Part shown: positions 23,986 to 35,739 of the stretch, one piece after another | Layout of the letters: the number at the start of each line of letters is the position of its first letter | Position numbering within the stretch: the first letter of the stretch is position 1 | Origin: a virus | Virus record (IMG/VR): IMGVR_UViG_3300038591_000004 | Span: 1-38,569 of that record | DNA length: 38,569 nucleotides | Strand: one strand, 5' to 3' | Notes under the pieces: model-generated | What the model was told of the DNA's origin: nothing | Database searches by the model: none | The model's input: only the letters and a program-made list of their open reading frames with translations | Position numbers and translations under genes: made by a program

Positions 23986-25482
23986 ATGGCAAAGTCAATT
24001 GCGGAAACACAAGCCATCGCCCGCAAGGGCAAGGTGGTAGTGGCTTCCGTTGAGCGGTTCGGTGAAAAGCTCATCGTGCCCGATGGCATGCGCTTGCAGG
24101 ATGCGATGCAGGTCATCCAGAGGGCGATGGATGCGGAGGAGACAATCGTTGCGCTGGTCGAGGACTTCGATTGCTTCCCGCAGGAAGGCGCTTACGCGCT
24201 TAAGCTGGCGCTGGAGGAACTGTACGGGTGGGTGGACATCCAACCCACGCCCAGTTTCTTCGGTGACGTTCCCCCCATGCTCATCGGGGTGACAGTCAAC
24301 GAGCGGGGAGACACGGTGCAGGTGCCGTGGGGCATGTTCCTGTGTCCCGCGATTCCCAAGGCAGACGGGCATCTGGAGTCGGGTGCGAAGCTCAACAACG
24401 ACAAGATGTACCAGTTCTATCTCGCTGGTGAGCTGAAGCAGAAGTACGCACCGGAGTTCAAGAAGCTCTGTGCCTGTGTGCGTAAGCATCTGGTGGAGCA
24501 CTCGCTCTACCGTGCCAAGGCGCTCTCACTGGTGTTCACCGGAGCCGATGGCAAGCCGCTCAAGATGCCGGAACCCAAGTTCATCAAGCTGGACAAGGTG
24601 GACTTGAGCCAGCTGGTGTTTCCTGCCGATGTCGAGGCAGCGGTGAAAACCAACCTGTTCGCTCCCGTGTTGCACACGGAAGCGGTACGCAAGGCGGGCA
24701 TCCCGCTCAAGCGTGGTGTGCTGCTCGCGGGAGACTACGGCGTTGGCAAGACGCTGGTAGCCTTCGTCACGGCGAAGCTGGCGATAGAGAACGGCTGGAC
24801 GTTCATCTACTGCCGCAACATCAGCGAGTTCCAGCAGATGGTGCGCTTTGCCGCGCACTACCAACCCAGCATCGTGTTCTGTGAGGACATTGACAAGGTG
24901 CTGGACGGCAACCGGGATGTGACGATGGATCACATCCTCAACGTACTGGACGGCGTGGACTCGAAGCGCAACGACATCATGGTGATTCTGACCACGAACG
25001 ATGTGGCCAAGATTCATCCGGCTGCGTTGCGTCCGGGCAGGCTGGATGCTGTCATCCATGTGGCACGACCGGATGCCGACGCTGCGGAACGGCTGGTGCG
25101 GTTGTACGCTGGCGACCAACTGGCAGCCAGCGAGGACTTGAGCACCGTGCGTGAGGTGCTCGCGGGCCAGATTCCTGCGGTGATTCGTGAGTGTGTGGAG
25201 CGTTCCAAGCTCTACGCAATCTCTCACGGCGTCACCGACAGGCTGACGGCAGTGGCCATTCTGGAGTCGGCCAAGACGATGGAGATGCAGCTCAACCTGC
25301 TGGCGGGCAAGCGTGAGGAACCGGAGAACGCCATGCTCACGTTCGGCAACGCCTTGGGCAAGCACATCGCCTGTGCTGCCATTCGAGTGGTGGATGCGTG
25401 GGAGCAGACGCAACCGGAGAAGCTGGCTGCGGCACGGCTCGCACTCAACAGTGGCAGCGGCTCCAACGGGAATCGCAGCTAA
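23986..25482 (+). CDS. AAA+ ATPase of Cdc48/FtsH type
   Basis: 498 residues, ATG at 23986 with AGGAGG nine bases upstream. The N-terminal 200 residues are an unrecognised mixed domain, with no membrane helix and no zinc protease motif. AAA core: Walker A GDYGVGKT at 249 to 256, Walker B IVFCEDID at 296 to 303, sensor 1 asparagine N338 in LTTND, and the second region of homology ALRPGRLD at 347 to 354 with arginine fingers R349 and R352. The classical fold is complete, so ATP hydrolysis in a hexameric ring is expected. It probably unfolds or remodels a protein target that the N-domain selects. It heads a run that continues to a MoxR ATPase and a VWA protein. Confidence 0.88.
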   Translation: MAKSIAETQAIARKGKVVVASVERFGEKLIVPDGMRLQDAMQVIQRAMDAEETIVALVEDFDCFPQEGAYALKLALEELYGWVDIQPTPSFFGDVPPMLIGVTVNERGDTVQVPWGMFLCPAIPKADGHLESGAKLNNDKMYQFYLAGELKQKYAPEFKKLCACVRKHLVEHSLYRAKALSLVFTGADGKPLKMPEPKFIKLDKVDLSQLVFPADVEAAVKTNLFAPVLHTEAVRKAGIPLKRGVLLAGDYGVGKTLVAFVTAKLAIENGWTFIYCRNISEFQQMVRFAAHYQPSIVFCEDIDKVLDGNRDVTMDHILNVLDGVDSKRNDIMVILTTNDVAKIHPAALRPGRLDAVIHVARPDADAAERLVRLYAGDQLAASEDLSTVREVLAGQIPAVIRECVERSKLYAISHGVTDRLTAVAILESAKTMEMQLNLLAGKREEPENAMLTFGNALGKHIACAAIRVVDAWEQTQPEKLAAARLALNSGSGSNGNRS

Positions 25483-25517
25483 TTGACACATTAACCGAAC
25501 GCTCAAGCTGCGAGGTG

Positions 25518-25545
25518 GGGGGAGCATAGCTGACTGTGCTCCCCC
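25518..25545 (+). terminator. Perfect 9-bp hairpin after the AAA+ gene
   Basis: GGGGGAGCA (25518 to 25526) pairs with TGCTCCCCC (25537 to 25545) around a 10-base loop. GCTGCG before and CGCAGC after it could extend the structure. TATAA follows rather than a U-run. It is likely a partial terminator that lowers expression of the following genes. Confidence 0.55.
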
Positions 25546-25575
25546 TATAACTCACGCAGCAGAGGGAGAGACATC

Positions 25576-25944
25576 ATGTTCAAGAATGATTCGGTAGCAT
25601 CGCCAGACTCACCGGAGTACCAGACGGAAGTGCAGGAGCTGAACGTCAAGGTTCCCAAGGTGGAGGGCGTGATGCAGCAGGAGATTGCCCACCACGTTGG
25701 CATCGCTCATGCCTACATGCACAACTGCATCGAGAGCTTGGAGCAGGTGAAAGCTCTGGCTGCCACGCTGCGCAACCCGGAGAACGCCACAGAGGAAGCA
25801 AGGCAGGAACTGGTGGAGTTTCAGAAGGTGTGCGATGTGACGCTGAAAGTCACCAGCGCCACTTGCAAGCTGCTGCTCTGCGGCATGCTGGAAACGATGG
25901 CAGAGCACGGCATCCCTGGTGCCAGGGATGTCCAGACCAACTAA
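25576..25944 (+). CDS. Helical hypothetical protein (122 aa)
   Basis: ATG at 25576 after GAGGGAGAG. Mainly helical, with acidic and Gln-rich segments (EGVMQQEIAHHVGIAHAYMHN, ENATEEARQELVEF). Three Cys lie in the second half. It lies between the two ATPase genes and may be an adaptor or substrate for one of them. Not recognised. Confidence 0.72.
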   Translation: MFKNDSVASPDSPEYQTEVQELNVKVPKVEGVMQQEIAHHVGIAHAYMHNCIESLEQVKALAATLRNPENATEEARQELVEFQKVCDVTLKVTSATCKLLLCGMLETMAEHGIPGARDVQTN

Positions 25945-26032
25945 CGGCAGGGATGTGGTGCTCCAATGGCTGGTACTGGCGGGACTCACACTGACCGCAT
26001 TACTGCTCTTGAGCTTGCTGCTCAAGTGGTAA
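25928..26032 (+). CDS. Micro membrane peptide (34 aa)
   Basis: ATG at 25928, overlapping the previous gene by 17 bases. After a polar start (MSRPTNGRDV) the remaining 24 residues are one Leu-rich hydrophobic helix ending in KW. This is a typical single-pass micro-membrane protein. No good ribosome site is present, so translation would be coupled to the upstream gene. Confidence 0.5.
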   Translation: MSRPTNGRDVVLQWLVLAGLTLTALLLLSLLLKW

Positions 26033-26094
26033 GGAAGCTGCGTGGTGCGTACTACTACGCATGCTGGAGGGTGTGGCTGTGGTGGCACAAGTGA
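26026..26094 (+). CDS. Aromatic micro-peptide candidate (22 aa)
   Basis: GTG at 26026 within the end of the previous gene. The peptide contains AYYYACWRVWLWWHK, with four Trp and three Tyr in 22 residues. The next gene starts inside it. Translation is unproven, and this could be a shadow frame. Confidence 0.3.
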   Translation: MVRKLRGAYYYACWRVWLWWHK

Positions 26095-26240
26095 TAGGTG
26101 CAGCGTGGCGGGTGGCGTGGTGTGTACAGCAGATGCTGAACACACACCACGACCCGCTACGGCTGCGGTGGTTCAAGCTGTACACATGGCTGGCCAGCCA
26201 GAGGCTCTACAGGCTGCCAGCGGGAGGACTGGGGTGGTGA
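26079..26240 (+). CDS. Small Trp-rich protein (53 aa)
   Basis: GTG at 26079, eight bases after GGAGG; an ATG at 26061 is in frame but lacks a ribosome site. Helical with Trp and Arg at regular spacing (VAQVIGAAWRVAWCVQQML, LRLRWFKLYTWLASQRLY). It looks like an amphipathic membrane-surface helix. The TGA overlaps the next GTG. Confidence 0.5.
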   Translation: MVAQVIGAAWRVAWCVQQMLNTHHDPLRLRWFKLYTWLASQRLYRLPAGGLGW

Positions 26241-26785
26241 CAACTGAGCAGATTCTGGACTTTGCAGGGAGCGTCGAGCAGACCACCAAGAGCATCTTGC
26301 TGGGCTTAGACCCGGACAAAGAGCTGACGCAAGTTGCCTTCGTGCTGACGAAGAAGATGCGCGAAGTGGACGGCAAGCAGCAGCATGAGTCTCGCCTGAT
26401 TCCCATGTCGTGGGAGAACGAAGCGGGCAAGGCTGGGATGATTGCTGCGCTCCATGCCTACATCAAGGCGCAGGATGGCGTGGCGTTGGTGCTGGTGCTC
26501 GATGCCCGGTTCAAGTCCATGCCGAACGATGCGCAGAGTGAGGAATACCTGAACAACTACGAGCCGGGGCAGCTTACGGACGACGAGAGCAACCCGGAAG
26601 CTCTGGTCATCGTGGCTTGTGGGGAGCGCATGATTCCGTGGGTACGCATCACGCCATACCGCCGTGGTATGGACGGCAAGGTGGTGAAGTTCGATGAGCC
26701 AGTCGTCAACGGCTATCAAAACGGCAACTTTGAGTCACGGTTCATTCCGCAGTTCTGGAAGCAAGAGGCACCGAAACACGCATAA
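26237..26785 (+). CDS. Hypothetical acidic protein between two AAA+ genes (182 aa)
   Basis: GTG at 26237 overlaps the preceding TGA and has GGGAGG upstream; the same frame is open from 26042, but the part before 26237 looks non-coding. An alpha/beta chain, with GMIAALHAYIKAQDGVALVLVLDARF in the middle and WVRITPYRRGMDGKVVKF near the end. No catalytic motif is recognised. Its place suggests a partner of the AAA+ or MoxR proteins. Confidence 0.72.
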   Translation: MTTEQILDFAGSVEQTTKSILLGLDPDKELTQVAFVLTKKMREVDGKQQHESRLIPMSWENEAGKAGMIAALHAYIKAQDGVALVLVLDARFKSMPNDAQSEEYLNNYEPGQLTDDESNPEALVIVACGERMIPWVRITPYRRGMDGKVVKFDEPVVNGYQNGNFESRFIPQFWKQEAPKHA

Positions 26786-26886
26786 CAACTCGACAGGGAG
26801 GTAACTCCAACTTGAAAACAACTCGCAAGTGACTCCGCAGCCGTACTCTCACGGAGACGGAGCGCAAGGCACTCTGGAGGAAAAAG

Positions 26887-27606
26887 ATGTCTGCTCATGG
26901 GCACAACTGGTGGGAAGTTCTAGGGGCGCTGTTCAAGGCGGTGCCGTTCCTGCGCATCATGCTGATTGGCCCGCCCGGAACGGGCAAAAGCACCACTGCC
27001 GTGCTCGAAGGCAAAGGCGCGAAGCGGGATGTATACCGCATCACGCTGACTGAGGGCGCTGGCATCGAGGACTTGCTGGGCATGTATCACTTGGTAGACG
27101 GCGAAACCAAGTGGGTGGATGGCCCTGCTGTCCGTGCGCTCAAGACTGGCAGCCTGTTGCTGCTGGACGAGATTGATCGGCACTCACCGGAAGTGATGTC
27201 GCTGCTCTATGCGCTGCTCGATGACGACCCGCAGGTGACGCTGCCTTCGGGGGAGGAAGTCACGGCGGCAAAGGGTTACGGCGTGATTGCCACCAGCAAC
27301 AACGCTGTGAGTGCGTTGCCGGATGCGATTCTTGACCGCTTCGAGGCTGTGCTCATCGCCAACAAGCCGCACCCGGACGCGATGAAGCACTTGTCGCAGG
27401 CGGCGCAGGCAGCGGTACGCAACTACTACGCGAGCGTGAGCTTGACCACGTGGAAGTGGAAGGCGAATCCCACGCTGCGGCGCATGCGGGCCTTCCAGAA
27501 GTTCAGCCCGCACCACGACGAAGCCGTGATTGCTGGCGCGGTGTTCGGGGAGAGCGGCGCAGAGATTCTTTCTGTGCTGGTCACGGCAGGACTGGGGAAG
27601 GAGTAG
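26887..27606 (+). CDS. MoxR-type AAA+ ATPase
   Basis: 239 residues, ATG at 26887 with GGAGGAAAA upstream. Walker A GPPGTGKS at 28 to 35, then GIEDLLGMYHLVDGE (the insert typical of MoxR/CbbQ ATPases), Walker B LLLLDEID with D94 and E95, sensor 1 in VIATSNN near 137 to 143, and ALPDAILDRFE with the arginine finger region. It is shorter than cellular MoxR proteins (about 300), mainly at the C-terminal lid. MoxR ATPases act with VWA-domain partners to remodel or activate protein complexes. A VWA gene lies four genes downstream, so the pair is likely functional. Confidence 0.85.
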   Translation: MSAHGHNWWEVLGALFKAVPFLRIMLIGPPGTGKSTTAVLEGKGAKRDVYRITLTEGAGIEDLLGMYHLVDGETKWVDGPAVRALKTGSLLLLDEIDRHSPEVMSLLYALLDDDPQVTLPSGEEVTAAKGYGVIATSNNAVSALPDAILDRFEAVLIANKPHPDAMKHLSQAAQAAVRNYYASVSLTTWKWKANPTLRRMRAFQKFSPHHDEAVIAGAVFGESGAEILSVLVTAGLGKE

Positions 27607-27611
27607 AGCAC

Positions 27612-27791
27612 ATGGCACAACCCAAGGTCGTACCCACGAAGGCTGAGACAGTCATCGCAGAAGCGTTAGAGAGCTACTGGTTCCTGACTGATGACGAGCA
27701 GAAAGAACTGTCGCTCGAAACCTACGTGACCAAGAAGCTGAATGAGGCTGGCTGCCTCTCTGTGGTAGCCAGGATGGGGGGAGGCGCGTAA
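27612..27791 (+). CDS. Small acidic protein (59 aa)
   Basis: ATG six bases after the MoxR gene's stop. Helical (ETVIAEALESYWFLTDDEQKEL), with a short Gly-rich tail. The stop overlaps the next ATG (TAATG). Its closeness to the MoxR gene suggests a partner role; nothing else can be said. Confidence 0.62.
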   Translation: MAQPKVVPTKAETVIAEALESYWFLTDDEQKELSLETYVTKKLNEAGCLSVVARMGGGA

Positions 27792-28078
27792 TGAGCGGCA
27801 CGATGAAGCAGAAGCGTTACCGTGAGGAGCTGCGGCGTCGTGCCGCAGAGGGAACCGGACATGATGCGGCGGGTGTTCAGCAGACCTTGGACACCCGCAC
27901 TGGCATGGCTCGTTGCTTGGCAGCGGGCTACAAGGTGGGAGAGTTTGAGAGGCGCAAACGCTCTCGCCGGGAGGATGTCGTACATCACCGGGTTGTAGTA
28001 GTAGTCGTAACCGCTACCACCGATGAGCTTCGTGTCTGGAGGCGGGGCTGCCGTGGACTGACCCGCGCACCGGAGTGA
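27791..28078 (+). CDS. Basic hypothetical protein (95 aa)
   Basis: ATG overlaps the previous stop. The first 60 residues are basic and helical (MKQKRYREELRRRAAEGTG, VGEFERRKRSRRED). After residue 64 the composition changes (a run of Val, then Arg/Gly/Thr), which may mean that a real, shorter gene was extended by a frameshift or mutation. Function unknown. Confidence 0.5.
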   Translation: MSGTMKQKRYREELRRRAAEGTGHDAAGVQQTLDTRTGMARCLAAGYKVGEFERRKRSRREDVVHHRVVVVVVTATTDELRVWRRGCRGLTRAPE

Positions 28079-28111
28079 CGTACCAGCCCACAAAGAAGCG
28101 AAAGGTGAAAC

Positions 28112-28366
28112 GTGCTGCCACCAGAGTTCGAGCCATACAACCTCAGCGAGATTAAAGCTGGAGACATTGTGGTGCGTTGGCTTGCGGGGGAAATCCCGCA
28201 TGAGCTACGGGTGTCAGAGGTCACCGACGACCGCATCAAGTGTGGTGCGTGGGAGTTCTGTCGCAAGACGGGCGCGGAGATTGATGAGGACTTGAACTGG
28301 GGGCCACCACCCAAGTGGACTGGCAGCTTTCTTGCCAAGGGGATGCAAACGAAAGGGGAAGCGTGA
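28112..28366 (+). CDS. Small SH3-like protein before the VWA gene (84 aa)
   Basis: GTG at 28112 with AAAGGTG upstream. IKAGDIVVRWLAGEIPHELRV looks like an SH3-like beta-barrel start. One Cys pair (CGAWEFC) follows. The TGA overlaps the VWA gene's ATG (TGATG), so the two are translationally coupled. Confidence 0.65.
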   Translation: MLPPEFEPYNLSEIKAGDIVVRWLAGEIPHELRVSEVTDDRIKCGAWEFCRKTGAEIDEDLNWGPPPKWTGSFLAKGMQTKGEA

Positions 28367-29787
28367 TGGCAAAGCCGACTGAGAAGGAGAAGTACGGTGT
28401 AGCGATTGAGCTGTACCCATCGCGGCTCAAGCGCAAGCTCAAAAAGATTCTCACCACGGAGGACTACCAGCGAAACGCTCCCCCGGATGCGCAGCCCATG
28501 AAAGGTGGGGTTGACCCGGACAAGGGCATCGTGGTGGTGCCTGACGATGAGGATGGGTATGCCCGTGCCATCCGTGTGCACGAAGCTGCTCACATGGTGT
28601 ACAGCAAGAAGCTGGATGGCAGCTGCATCGAGAACATTCTGGAGGACATCAAGGTTCAGTTGCTGCTCAACCCGCAAGGGCTGGCACGGCGTGATGAGGT
28701 AGTGGCTGCACTCATCGAACTACGGAACGTGGCGCAAACTGACCCGGAGGCGCTGCGTCTTGACCCGGAGTGTTGGAACAGCGCCGTCAACATGGTGGCC
28801 CGCGCTCTAGCCATCCTGAAGGCAGACAGCGCTAACTATCCACGGCTGCTCAAGCAGGTCGAGCAGCAGTTCTGGCATGGCAAGGGCAAGCACATCAACA
28901 AGCAGTTGCAGGACATCATCCACGACATGCTGCTGCATGACCGGGATGCTGCCCGGAAGAAGTTGCAGAAGCTGTTGCAGATTGTGGACTCGACCGAGAA
29001 GGGGGGCTTTCAGTATGGCATGGCCAAGCCTGCCCGTGGGAAGCCAGAGAAGGGTGATGACATTGACATAGAACCCACCTCCAAGAAGCCAACCCACTAC
29101 CTGCCCTTGCTGGGTGAACCGTGGTACACGCCCTTCGACAAGGTGAGGGGGAGGCGCACGGTGATGCACGTTCACCACCTTGCGATGGAGGAAGGCAGGC
29201 CACAGAAGAAGTCTGACCGCTACGAAGTGACAGCCATGACGGGCATGAAGATTCGCAAGCGCAAGCTGGCGATGGCGCTAACGCCCTGTCCGCCACGGCT
29301 GTTCAACAAGGTGAGGCGGCGTCCCGGTGGCACGGTGCTGATTGATGCTTCTAGCTCGATGGACTTGGAGAAGCATCACCTGATTGAGGCTGCTGATGCG
29401 CTACCGGGTGGTACGGTGGCGTACTACTACGGCATGAATCATGACTCTTACACCGGGCACCTGTTCATCTTCGCAGAGAAGGGGCGCATGTGTGTGGCGA
29501 GTCAGCTGGTGCAGACGGATGGTGAGAACGTGGTGGACTTCCCTGCGCTCAAGTGGCTGCTCGACCAGCCCGCTCCACGCTGGTTCATGACGGACCGTGG
29601 CTTCTGTAGTGGGAGTTACAGCGAATCGAGGATGGCGCTCACGTTGCTGGGTGCTGCGGAGAACAGCGGGCGCGTCAAGGTGGTCAAGCAACTGGGTGTG
29701 CTCAAGCGTTCCATCAAGGACCGCCAGAAGCTGGATGCAGTGGAGCAGGAGATTCGCAAGCACCACGCCAAGCTGGGGGTGAAGTGA
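28366..29787 (+). CDS. VWA protein with HEXXH motif (DUF2201-like), MoxR partner
   Basis: 473 residues from the ATG at 28366. The N-terminal half has RVHEAAHMVY with H72-E73-x-x-H76, the HEXXH zinc site of metallopeptidase-like domains. The middle is helical and charged. The C-terminal third opens with TVLIDASSSMD, where D327-A-S-S-S is the MIDAS motif of VWA domains; a Gly/Tyr-rich strand and a later LLDQPAPRWFMTD fit the rest of the fold. This order (metallopeptidase-like, then VWA) matches the DUF2201 proteins that pair with MoxR ATPases. Peptidase activity is not assured; a third zinc ligand is not clear. Together with the MoxR gene it probably forms a protein-remodelling pair used during infection. 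Confidence 0.82.
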   Translation: MAKPTEKEKYGVAIELYPSRLKRKLKKILTTEDYQRNAPPDAQPMKGGVDPDKGIVVVPDDEDGYARAIRVHEAAHMVYSKKLDGSCIENILEDIKVQLLLNPQGLARRDEVVAALIELRNVAQTDPEALRLDPECWNSAVNMVARALAILKADSANYPRLLKQVEQQFWHGKGKHINKQLQDIIHDMLLHDRDAARKKLQKLLQIVDSTEKGGFQYGMAKPARGKPEKGDDIDIEPTSKKPTHYLPLLGEPWYTPFDKVRGRRTVMHVHHLAMEEGRPQKKSDRYEVTAMTGMKIRKRKLAMALTPCPPRLFNKVRRRPGGTVLIDASSSMDLEKHHLIEAADALPGGTVAYYYGMNHDSYTGHLFIFAEKGRMCVASQLVQTDGENVVDFPALKWLLDQPAPRWFMTDRGFCSGSYSESRMALTLLGAAENSGRVKVVKQLGVLKRSIKDRQKLDAVEQEIRKHHAKLGVK

Positions 29788-30047
29788 TGGCCGACGAACA
29801 CCAACACAACTGGAGACATCTAGGTGGTGCGCGCTTCGGCATGTACCGCTGTAGCGGGTGTCAATGCTTTGGGTACTCCAAGGTGTACCGGGGCATGCAC
29901 ACCCATCAATTCATCGTGCCTTACAAGTGTTACAAGTGCAAGGCATGGGCTGTAGCCAAGGAAGTACCAGAGAAGCAGCGATGGCGGCATGCTCCACCCA
30001 GTTATTGGGTGTGTGCCAAGCATCGCAGCAAGGGGGCAAAGAAGTGA
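29787..30047 (+). CDS. Zinc-ribbon protein (86 aa)
   Basis: ATG overlaps the VWA gene's TGA (TGATG). CSGCQC near 23 to 28 and CYKC near 48 to 51 form the zinc site. The N-terminus (MADEHQHNWRHLGGARF) has a His pair and resembles small phage zinc ribbons that start with an H-x-W. The coupling to the VWA gene makes it part of the same unit. Confidence 0.7.
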   Translation: MADEHQHNWRHLGGARFGMYRCSGCQCFGYSKVYRGMHTHQFIVPYKCYKCKAWAVAKEVPEKQRWRHAPPSYWVCAKHRSKGAKK

Positions 30048-32876: not shown

Positions 32877-33902
32877 ATGGGCAAAGCTGGACGACCCAAG
32901 GGAACCATTGATAAGCGGTTGGTGGAGCGCAACCAAGACATTCTCCAGCGCCGTGAGTGGGGCGAGACGCTGGAATCCATTGGTGTAATCTACGGGCTGA
33001 CGCGAGAGCGGGTCCGGCAGATTGAGAAGGCCACCAACACAGCCTTCGGCGATGCGGGCCTACGTCCAACAGATGTTGAAGGAGGAGGCCCCATGCCCGA
33101 AGAAGTGAGCCACGCCGACCAGCCGCTGTGTAAGTGCGGACATGAATGGGGATACCATAGCGCCGACAGATGCGCGATGTGTTCCTACGACCCGGTGCAG
33201 CCAGAAATGGGATGCGACGGCTACACTCCCCCGAGCGACAGCCCTGCCGCGCCCCCCAAGGGTCGGGAATGGCAGAATGACTTCCCGCAGTGGGAATGTC
33301 AGCACTGTCATCGTCGGGAACTAGGCGGAATGGGCAAGCCGACCATCTGCGCGACTTGCGGCTGGAATCTTTGGGAACAGACCGAACCACCCGCGCCCCC
33401 TGCCCCGGCCAGCGCCCGCGAGTGGTATCAGCAAAGTTACGATGGTGACGTGCAGTGTGAGATAGGGAAACTGAACGCCGCTTTCGAGTTTGCTGACGCC
33501 TACGCCCTCGCCTTCTCCCGCACCCGCTGTTTCGTTCCTGAGCACGACACCGTGGGAGACGCCAAGTTTGTCATCGCGCAGCAGGAGGAGCGCGTGAGCG
33601 ACATCGAATATGCGCTGTCGAAGTTTATGCGGGATTACGTTTCTACATATGTGGCGGAGCGCAACCGAGAACTGGCCCCGCATCAAGTTCCGCTTAATAT
33701 CCCGCTTTTGTGCGAAGGTCTGGCCAGGGCTTGTTCTGCCCGCTTCGCCGTGGAGGAGAAGAAGCCGCGCTGGACCGTCCATCGTGCCGCATTGGGTGAT
33801 GAGCTGCGGCGCGACGGTGAGTACGTGGGCAACGTGTTGCCAGAGTATACCGAGCTACTGCTGGAGATTGCCGCCTGGCTCAACTCCAAGGAGCCGCGAT
33901 GA
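32877..33902 (+). CDS. Sigma-70 region-4 HTH fused to zinc-binding protein
   Basis: 341 codons from ATG 32877. Residues 21 to 52 (core GETLESIGVIYGLTRERVRQ) match sigma-70 region 4.2, the helix-turn-helix that reads -35 boxes; no region 2 is present. From 78 on the character changes: CKCGHEW and CAMC near 84 to 101, CQHC and CATC near 139 to 160, then a helical half with no motif. An ATG at codon 73 (33093) has a perfect GGAGGAGG five bases upstream, so the zinc part may also be made alone. I infer a fusion of an HTH regulator with a zinc-binding gene. The HTH could redirect host polymerase or block -35 binding. Confidence 0.75.
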   Translation: MGKAGRPKGTIDKRLVERNQDILQRREWGETLESIGVIYGLTRERVRQIEKATNTAFGDAGLRPTDVEGGGPMPEEVSHADQPLCKCGHEWGYHSADRCAMCSYDPVQPEMGCDGYTPPSDSPAAPPKGREWQNDFPQWECQHCHRRELGGMGKPTICATCGWNLWEQTEPPAPPAPASAREWYQQSYDGDVQCEIGKLNAAFEFADAYALAFSRTRCFVPEHDTVGDAKFVIAQQEERVSDIEYALSKFMRDYVSTYVAERNRELAPHQVPLNIPLLCEGLARACSARFAVEEKKPRWTVHRAALGDELRRDGEYVGNVLPEYTELLLEIAAWLNSKEPR

Positions 33903-34872: not shown

Positions 34873-35739
34873 TTACTGGACGGTGGATTTGCCAGGGCTG
34901 TCTTCGGGCTTCTGGTCGCCCCAGCCGTTGAACTTGGCGCGAAGATCGTGGAAGTCTACGCGCAGGCGGAAGGGCAAGATGGGTTTGCCACGGCGTAGCA
35001 CTACTTCGACCATCACCCCGCCGGTATCGCGGGCTGTGGGGGTGACGATGAAGTAGGTGTCACCTTTGGCGAAGATGGTGCTTGAGCCACGTAGTAGGTC
35101 AGGACCGGAGCGGGTCATGGTGCCATCAAAGCTGGGTTTGCTGGTGTGGTGCGTGATGATGACTGCGACGTTGTTACGCTCCCGGATGAAGTCCAGATTG
35201 CGGAACACCGTCATCATGTCTTTGGCGCTGTTCTCATCACCGGTGTGGAATTCAACCAGGGGGTCGAAGGCCACCACGTCAGGCTTGCAGCTGGAGATGG
35301 CTTGCTGGATGCGCTGCTGGCCACCGACGGAGTTGAATTCTAAGGTGTGGTCGCAGCTGTGCAGGAAGAAGTTGTCATCTACCTTGGCCCGGTCGTAGGG
35401 GTTCAGGTGGTCGTAGATGGTCTGCAGGCGTTGCTGCATGTCGTGGAAGCCCACTTCCTGTTCGAGCAGCAGAACACGCATGGGGCGTGAGACTTTGAAG
35501 GCCATGTCCATGCCGTGCGATAGGGGGTTGACTCTGTAGTTACCAAACAGCGGTGTGCCAGTAACTAAGTGGTAAAGCAGGGAGGCCAGGATGAAGCTCT
35601 TGTAGGCTTTGGGTGGACCACCGATGAACATGAGAGAGTTGGGGTTGAGGATGCCTTCATCTATCAGGTAGTCGCCGTTGGTGAACGTCATGGCGCGAAG
35701 CTCGCGCACGGAGACAGGCTTGGGTGGGGGCGCGGACAT
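34873..35739 (-). CDS. RepA/AAA_25-like hexameric ATPase
   Basis: 288 residues from ATG 35739. Walker A variant GGPPKAYKS at 40 to 48, Walker B strand ending VVAFDP with D159, and ITHHTSK near 195 to 201, the histidine motif of the RecA-like RepA/AAA_25 family. The chain is one core domain with a short N-terminal lead and a C-terminal beta region. Relatives include plasmid RepA helicases and phage ATPases. It may be the replicative helicase or a recombination ATPase. It is transcribed against both flanking blocks. A leader hairpin (35766 to 35812) lies upstream. Confidence 0.8.
   Translation of the reverse strand: MSAPPPKPVSVRELRAMTFTNGDYLIDEGILNPNSLMFIGGPPKAYKSFILASLLYHLVTGTPLFGNYRVNPLSHGMDMAFKVSRPMRVLLLEQEVGFHDMQQRLQTIYDHLNPYDRAKVDDNFFLHSCDHTLEFNSVGGQQRIQQAISSCKPDVVAFDPLVEFHTGDENSAKDMMTVFRNLDFIRERNNVAVIITHHTSKPSFDGTMTRSGPDLLRGSSTIFAKGDTYFIVTPTARDTGGVMVEVVLRRGKPILPFRLRVDFHDLRAKFNGWGDQKPEDSPGKSTVQ

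Follow-up and report, generated by a model that had tools for sequence, protein, structure and literature searches.

Results

The subject of this analysis is a run of genes at positions 23986–30047 of the virus record IMGVR_UViG_3300038591_000004, the whole 38,569-base stretch of which is referred to below as the window. The terminase, portal, major capsid and tail-type genes lie on the minus strand, and a rightward arm that begins at approximately 22.7 kb holds an AAA+ ATPase, a MoxR ATPase and a VWA protein possessing both an HEXXH and a MIDAS motif, with about seven small open reading frames (ORFs) in between. An initial annotation of this DNA had described the three genes as one rightward run with small genes between them, and all were found to be present and open, the VWA start being corrected to ATG 28366, a better choice than GTG 28315 in view of its TGATG overlap with the upstream stop codon. 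Comparison with relatives demonstrates that the functional unit of this run is MoxR plus VWA, while the AAA gene is their neighbour in two lineages (that of the window and the Schitoviridae) and not an obligate partner. The features of the run are listed below, L013 being the related record IMGVR_UViG_3300034819_000005.

23986–25482, plus strand: classical AAA+ ATPase of 498 amino acids (aa) (phrog_10440, E = 7e-133; PF00004, E = 1.1e-14)
25507–25560, plus strand: strong RNA hairpin with no T-run (inverted repeat I3; minimum free energy −38.6 kcal/mol, z = −5.6)
25576–25944, plus strand: small gene of 122 aa (ORF; no convincing family; no L013 counterpart found)
26237–26785, plus strand: small gene of ~182 aa with a likely GTG start (ORF, sequence reading; no L013 counterpart found)
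26887–27606, plus strand: MoxR-type AAA+ ATPase of 239 aa (PF07728, E = 3.3e-21)
27612–27791, plus strand: small gene of 59 aa with a good Shine-Dalgarno sequence, 5 nt past the MoxR stop (sequence reading)
27791–28078, plus strand: small ORF of 95 aa with a TAATG overlap, doubtful as a gene (ORF, sequence reading)
28112–28366, plus strand: small gene of 84 aa with a TGATG overlap with the VWA start (ORF; no L013 counterpart found)
28366–29787, plus strand: VWA protein of 473 aa with an N-terminal gluzincin-like signature and a C-terminal MIDAS (alignments with L013, L084 and the IMG/VR family)
29787–30047, plus strand: small Cys/His-rich gene of 86 aa, a possible zinc-ribbon, with a TGATG overlap with the VWA stop (ORF; no convincing family)

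The MoxR and VWA proteins

The relatives were reached via the neighbourhood of the AAA gene first and then by profile scans. In the MoxR protein the motif set is complete, as had been annotated: Walker A (GPPGTGKS, 26968–26991), Walker B (LLLLDEID, 27154–27177), sensor-1 (ATSN), the arginine finger (DRFEA) and sensor-2 (TLRRMR). These motifs are invariant among the MoxR proteins of the window, of L013 and of a further contig, L084, the window protein being 61% identical to the former and 50% to the latter. Its sequence matches in the PDB are midasin, NorQ and CbbQ, and it is closer to NorQ (1.7e-17) and CbbQ (2.5e-10) than to CobS (2.2e-4). When bacterial genomes were scanned with the MoxR profile, only NorQ/CbbQ-like cellular MoxR genes matched.

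The VWA protein carries HEAAH (28579–28593), E-D-I-K (28642–28653), the MIDAS sequence DASSS (29344–29358) and T-D (29590–29595), so that the HEXXH is accompanied by a downstream Glu as the putative third ligand, in the manner of a gluzincin. The VWA proteins of the window, L013 and L084 are only ~30% identical, with 78 invariant columns, and yet H72, E73, H76, E93, D94, D327, S329, S331, T409 and D410 are invariant in all three. Since all the signature residues fall within so few invariant columns, the HEXXH/MIDAS signature is not a product of chance, and the metallopeptidase-like domain that had been annotated on this protein is real as a signature and conserved. In an alignment of 53 members the window HEAAH and E-D-I-K share columns with HELGH and E-E-V-R of the others, and the VWA halves of the window clade and of the IMG/VR family described below align with an hhalign E of 2e-24.

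The metal site is usually retained in this family and can decay. HEXXH is intact in 87 of the 106 distinct full-length family proteins and decayed in register in seven (HQLGR, KQLGY, TELAH and LQLGH among the resulting forms); a further set has a different N-terminus, and the homologue in Stenotrophomonas phage ANB28 also lacks the motif. Parsimony requires three HEXXH changes, a rough figure given the very long tree branches, or four if L172, which was left out because it ends at a contig end, is counted. The loss of key residues in relatives, named in the initial annotation as a finding that would speak against it, therefore occurs in some members and not in most. Judged from its motif, proteolysis by the N-terminal domain is plausible; as HEXXH has decayed in some relatives and in ANB28, proteolysis cannot be the sole or the indispensable function.

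Outside this family the VWA protein is poorly connected. Neither it nor its family matched any Pfam model, and phrog_33218, which matches the window protein at 1e-8, was searched for in the related records and not found there. Three family members, among them the window protein by tblastn, were tested against 50,697 phage records and none returned a relative; single-sequence IMG/VR scans with the window protein were likewise empty, and no match could be confirmed when the VWA profile was run on bacterial genomes.

Linkage of the pair and separability of the AAA gene

L013 was recovered by a profile search that started from the AAA gene; it keeps the order AAA-MoxR-VWA with all key motifs retained. 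It belongs to a sister phage of the window (TerL, major capsid protein and portal matches at E < 1e-160), and in both genomes the module is on the strand opposite to the structural genes and in a different arm. No counterpart of the small genes between AAA, MoxR and VWA can be recognised in L013. The L084 contig has only MoxR and VWA in common with the window and shares no structural gene with it, which indicates that MoxR-VWA moves as a unit.

The IMG/VR profile scans led by L084 yielded at least 223 VWA-bearing and at least 296 MoxR-bearing stretches. Both genes are present in 127 of 150 IMG/VR loci, corresponding to 106 distinct pairs, and MoxR comes first and on the same strand as VWA without exception (127/127 loci, 106/106 distinct pairs); the median ORF gap is −13, the two genes usually touching. 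Among the 15 VWA loci with no MoxR match, 14 are cut off by a contig end so that they start within VWA. This linkage bears out the annotation of MoxR and VWA as a pair. As the pairs of the family usually abut, the spacing of three small genes between MoxR and VWA in the window is probably a derived state.

The third ATPase, which had been annotated as an integral part of the set, does not hold that position, because gene and pair each occur in the absence of the other. Only one of these 150 loci, L013, contains the AAA gene. Conversely, among 71 IMG/VR loci of the AAA family, many of which lack full flanks, ten have MoxR and VWA, three have MoxR alone and 58 have neither, and phage KPP25, whose genome is complete, carries the AAA gene with neither MoxR nor VWA. 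The Schitoviridae join the same AAA family with MoxR and a DUF2201-type VWA in a gene order different from that of the window. The same gene order is thus found elsewhere in L013, and the same combination in another order in the Schitoviridae, but in nearly all pair-bearing loci the AAA gene is missing.

The AAA protein itself consists of an N-terminal alpha/beta domain followed by a single AAA module, with Walker A at 24730–24753, Walker B (F-C-E-D-I-D) at 24877–24894 and RPGR at 25030–25041; its AlphaFold model has a pLDDT of 87.8. The AAA module, the second region of homology and the RPGR finger place it in the classical AAA clade (Cdc48/proteasomal ATPase/Bcs1). Its best sequence-profile match is p97/Cdc48, with proteasomal ATPases also favoured, and the best Foldseek matches are Bcs1, then proteasome ATPases and YjoB. 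The label "Cdc48-type" is supported in so far as the profile goes; Cdc48/p97 proper is ruled out by the single AAA domain and by a Walker B that reads E-D and not D-E, with E300 and D301 invariant across 51 relatives (alignment A7). This E-D Walker B we take to resemble that of Bcs1-like ATPases.

Gene neighbourhood

An SbcD-like exonuclease gene lies just downstream of VWA in the large IMG/VR group, always on the same strand, in 84 of the 104 loci that reach far enough. PHROGs assigned 16 families among 76 neighbour proteins, none of them structural, and named 11 of the 76 as single-strand annealing proteins; from position and count we take these to be the conserved gene right after the exonuclease. 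In other lineages the pair is likewise found among genes of DNA and nucleotide metabolism: it is flanked by gp46 upstream and gp45/gp44 downstream in Kyanoviridae, adjoins DNA polymerase III alpha and guanylate kinase in ANB28, and lies among nucleotide, replication and rII genes in N4, Pollock, GMA2 and Zooman.

Within the run of the window, start and stop codons overlap at no fewer than three junctions (TAATG 27789–27793, TGATG 28364–28368 and TGATG 29785–29789), and the likely GTG start of the 26237–26785 gene overlaps the stop of ORF 26061–26240. These overlaps support translational coupling of the small genes around MoxR and VWA, in agreement with what had been proposed. The hairpin at 25507–25560 sits between the AAA gene and the remainder of the run and is a possible terminator, processing site or regulator; because of it AAA may be transcribed separately.

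Downstream of the module the window encodes a 341-aa protein with an N-terminal sigma-70 region 4 domain (32877–33902, E = 5e-8), an AAA_25 (RepA/KaiC-like) ATPase on the minus strand (34873–35739), which is conserved in L013 and there keeps its orientation towards the structural genes, and a 413-aa protein with no family match that is strongly conserved in L013 (36587–37828, E = 1e-72). Several labels in the compared genomes also deserve attention. N4 gp25 (L007:1165-2307) is annotated as "HNH endonuclease", as is PHROG 1314, while Pfam shows the DUF2201_N metallopeptidase and DUF2201 VWA domains only, so that the label looks like an error. In Pollock (L002:2566-4354) an HNH endonuclease gene interrupts the N4 gp24-like MoxR gene and leaves it in two parts, which points to an intron or insertion in this conserved ATPase. 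The "photosystem II D1" annotation inside the structural gene block of the Pseudomonas phage KPP25 (L009:3772-4944) is almost certainly wrong.

Discussion

What the present work establishes is the gene pair with its linkage, the motifs and how well they are conserved, the genomic surroundings, and the fact that AAA is separable from the pair; it is very probable that the pair of the window is a MoxR-VWA remodeller. The fuller statement, that this remodelling pair acts in DNA metabolism and that the AAA protein is separate from it, is quite possible and is put forward tentatively. By analogy we infer that the pair works like NorQ/NorD. MoxR would form an ATPase ring, and the VWA protein would be the adaptor that plugs into the ring and grips the target complex via its MIDAS metal site. 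The gluzincin-like N-terminal domain may cleave the target or handle metal in most relatives, not in all, and could be either an added or an ancestral effector of the NorQ/NorD-like mechanism. Judging from gene position, the pair would be made with the early or middle genes and not with the virion genes, and its target would most likely be a DNA-replication or recombination complex, either viral or commandeered from the host. The Cdc48/Bcs1-like AAA+ protein would then be a separate unfoldase whose gene accompanies the pair in two lineages.

Several observations weigh against this reading. No SbcD-like gene is next to the pair in the window or in N4, and exonuclease and annealing homologues, sought in the window and L013, were not found there, so that the link to DNA metabolism comes from other lineages. 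Many of the exonuclease-bearing IMG/VR loci are closely related, which reduces the independent cases to a handful of lineages. Roseophage RPP1 encodes four virion proteins near its gp24/gp25 homologues (PMC4193335). The AlphaFold model of the VWA protein, built from a three-sequence input, has a pLDDT of 42.5, and neither the finger nor a zincin fold is seen in it.

The RPP1 arrangement would suit a chaperone of virion assembly or maturation, in which the pair folds head or tail components or puts them together and structural proteins are trimmed by the metallopeptidase. Iyer et al. 2021 proposed this role for the pair of jumbo phages (PMC7824862), and in the archaeal virus ATV the MoxR protein p618, itself a virion component, interacts with the VWA protein p892 (PMC4124505). 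On the other hand, the position of the module on the other strand and arm than the structural genes in the window and L013, the DNA and nucleotide genes, none structural, that neighbour the pair in several lineages, the middle transcripts of N4 gp24/gp25 (PMC4193335) and the loss of HEXXH in several relatives all speak against such a role, and we consider it unlikely. The initial annotation had offered three options (disarming a host complex, activating a phage enzyme, processing virion parts), of which the last has the weakest backing from the gene surroundings. The location away from the structural genes, of an early/middle type, would suit an anti-host weapon, the three proteins stripping or degrading a host complex, such as a polymerase or a defence complex, early in infection. 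The combination of an unfoldase with metallopeptidase-like chemistry is compatible with this, as is a weak match of the AAA module to models of the defence ATPase IetA. That match, however, is confined to the common AAA core, and such pairs belong to the core genes of Schitoviridae and are frequent in Kyanoviridae, beside replication genes, which looks more like a core viral function; a weapon of this kind is also rather improbable.

It was proposed by Liu et al. 2021 that viral pairs of this type are CobST, which together with host CobN would raise cobalamin production, and that the peptidase annotations are mistaken (PMC8651126); the label was later repeated for schitoviruses and CRP-810-type phages. 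CobS/CobT is indeed a MoxR-VWA pair with the E-x-x-R helix column in common with the window, CobT is matched by the sequence of the ANB28 protein, and there is a weak alignment between CobT and the VWA half of the window clade (hhalign E = 3.5e-5). Nevertheless, the three cellular CobTs examined lack HEXXH though they keep the E-x-x-R column, the window VWA protein has no PF06213 match, and its MoxR partner is nearer to NorQ/CbbQ than to CobS. The VWA protein thus does not look like a CobT, and a viral cobaltochelatase is very unlikely. The view that the three genes are unrelated and neighbours merely by position in an early region could draw on the separability of the AAA gene, the hairpin between it and the rest, and the lack of conservation of the intervening small genes. 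It is excluded for MoxR and VWA alone by their linkage in 127/127 loci, and for the trio the order kept in L013 despite the turnover of small genes, together with the renewed co-occurrence of the AAA family with a MoxR-VWA pair in Schitoviridae, makes it extremely improbable.

The remodelling pair with a role in DNA metabolism may be specified further. The phage MoxR-zincin-VWA pairs could be dedicated remodelling or metal-loading factors for the viral recombination machinery (an SbcCD/gp46-gp47-like nuclease, an annealing protein), which would be a new use of MoxR-VWA and would render the "cobS/cobT" and "porphyrin biosynthesis" labels wrong; we offer this as a speculation with little likelihood of being correct in full. 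Such pairs were already known in several phages. What is new is a large family in uncultivated viruses, many of whose members lie beside DNA-recombination genes and not virion genes; the literature searched appears to hold no description of the family, of its recombination-gene link or of its metal-site decay. N4-like phages have genes of this kind in their core set, T4-like cyanophages commonly carry them and hundreds of uncultivated viral contigs contain them, and their role has been disputed between virion assembly and vitamin B12 synthesis. The evidence obtained here disfavours both for this family, and the comparison points to DNA metabolism, with a peptidase-like metal site that is usually kept and can decay.

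Comparison with known systems

The nearest relatives of the window MoxR that have been solved and have a separate VWA protein as partner are NorQ and CbbQ. NorQ/NorD and CbbQ/CbbO have the same broad MoxR type and a VWA partner with MIDAS, but the VWA genes beside the nearest cellular MoxR genes have no HEXXH. In NorQ/NorD a finger of the VWA domain inserts into the pore of the MoxR ring, and MIDAS is required for the target but dispensable for binding to NorQ (PMC9976466, PMC13036017).

The statement in the initial annotation that the set is unusual for a phage was too strong, since a phage-encoded MoxR and a VWA protein with an N-terminal metallopeptidase domain had been described in jumbo phages (Group 2.2; PMC7824862), for which virion assembly with processing was proposed, and N4 gp24/gp25 are core genes (PMC4193335, PMC7650795). 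The jumbo-phage pair is likened to ours by description and not by sequence, and no phrog_10440-type AAA was described with it. The Kyanoviridae "cobS"/"peptidase" genes (phrog_249/phrog_459) resemble those of the window in sequence: the MoxR is ~29% identical to that of the window, and the "peptidase" carries HEXXH..EDxRxE..MIDAS, its HEXXH region aligning with the window family at an hhalign E of 1e-4. They differ in having the VWA gene first, a VWA protein of 700+ aa with a long acidic linker, and no adjoining AAA. The window-type signature together with MIDAS also occurs in Gordonia phage GMA2 and in DSL-LC01.

In N4 the genes for MoxR and for a VWA protein with HEXXH and MIDAS are adjacent, and in Pollock and its relatives a phrog_10440 AAA gene is near the MoxR-VWA pair, as in the window. 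N4 gp25 consists of DUF2201_N and DUF2201 (PF13203, E = 3e-87; PF09967, E = 1e-46), neither of which is matched by the window VWA protein, and homology of the two was unsupported, the hhalign profile comparison being no better than the control. The question of the role of such pairs is directly testable in laboratory phages such as N4.

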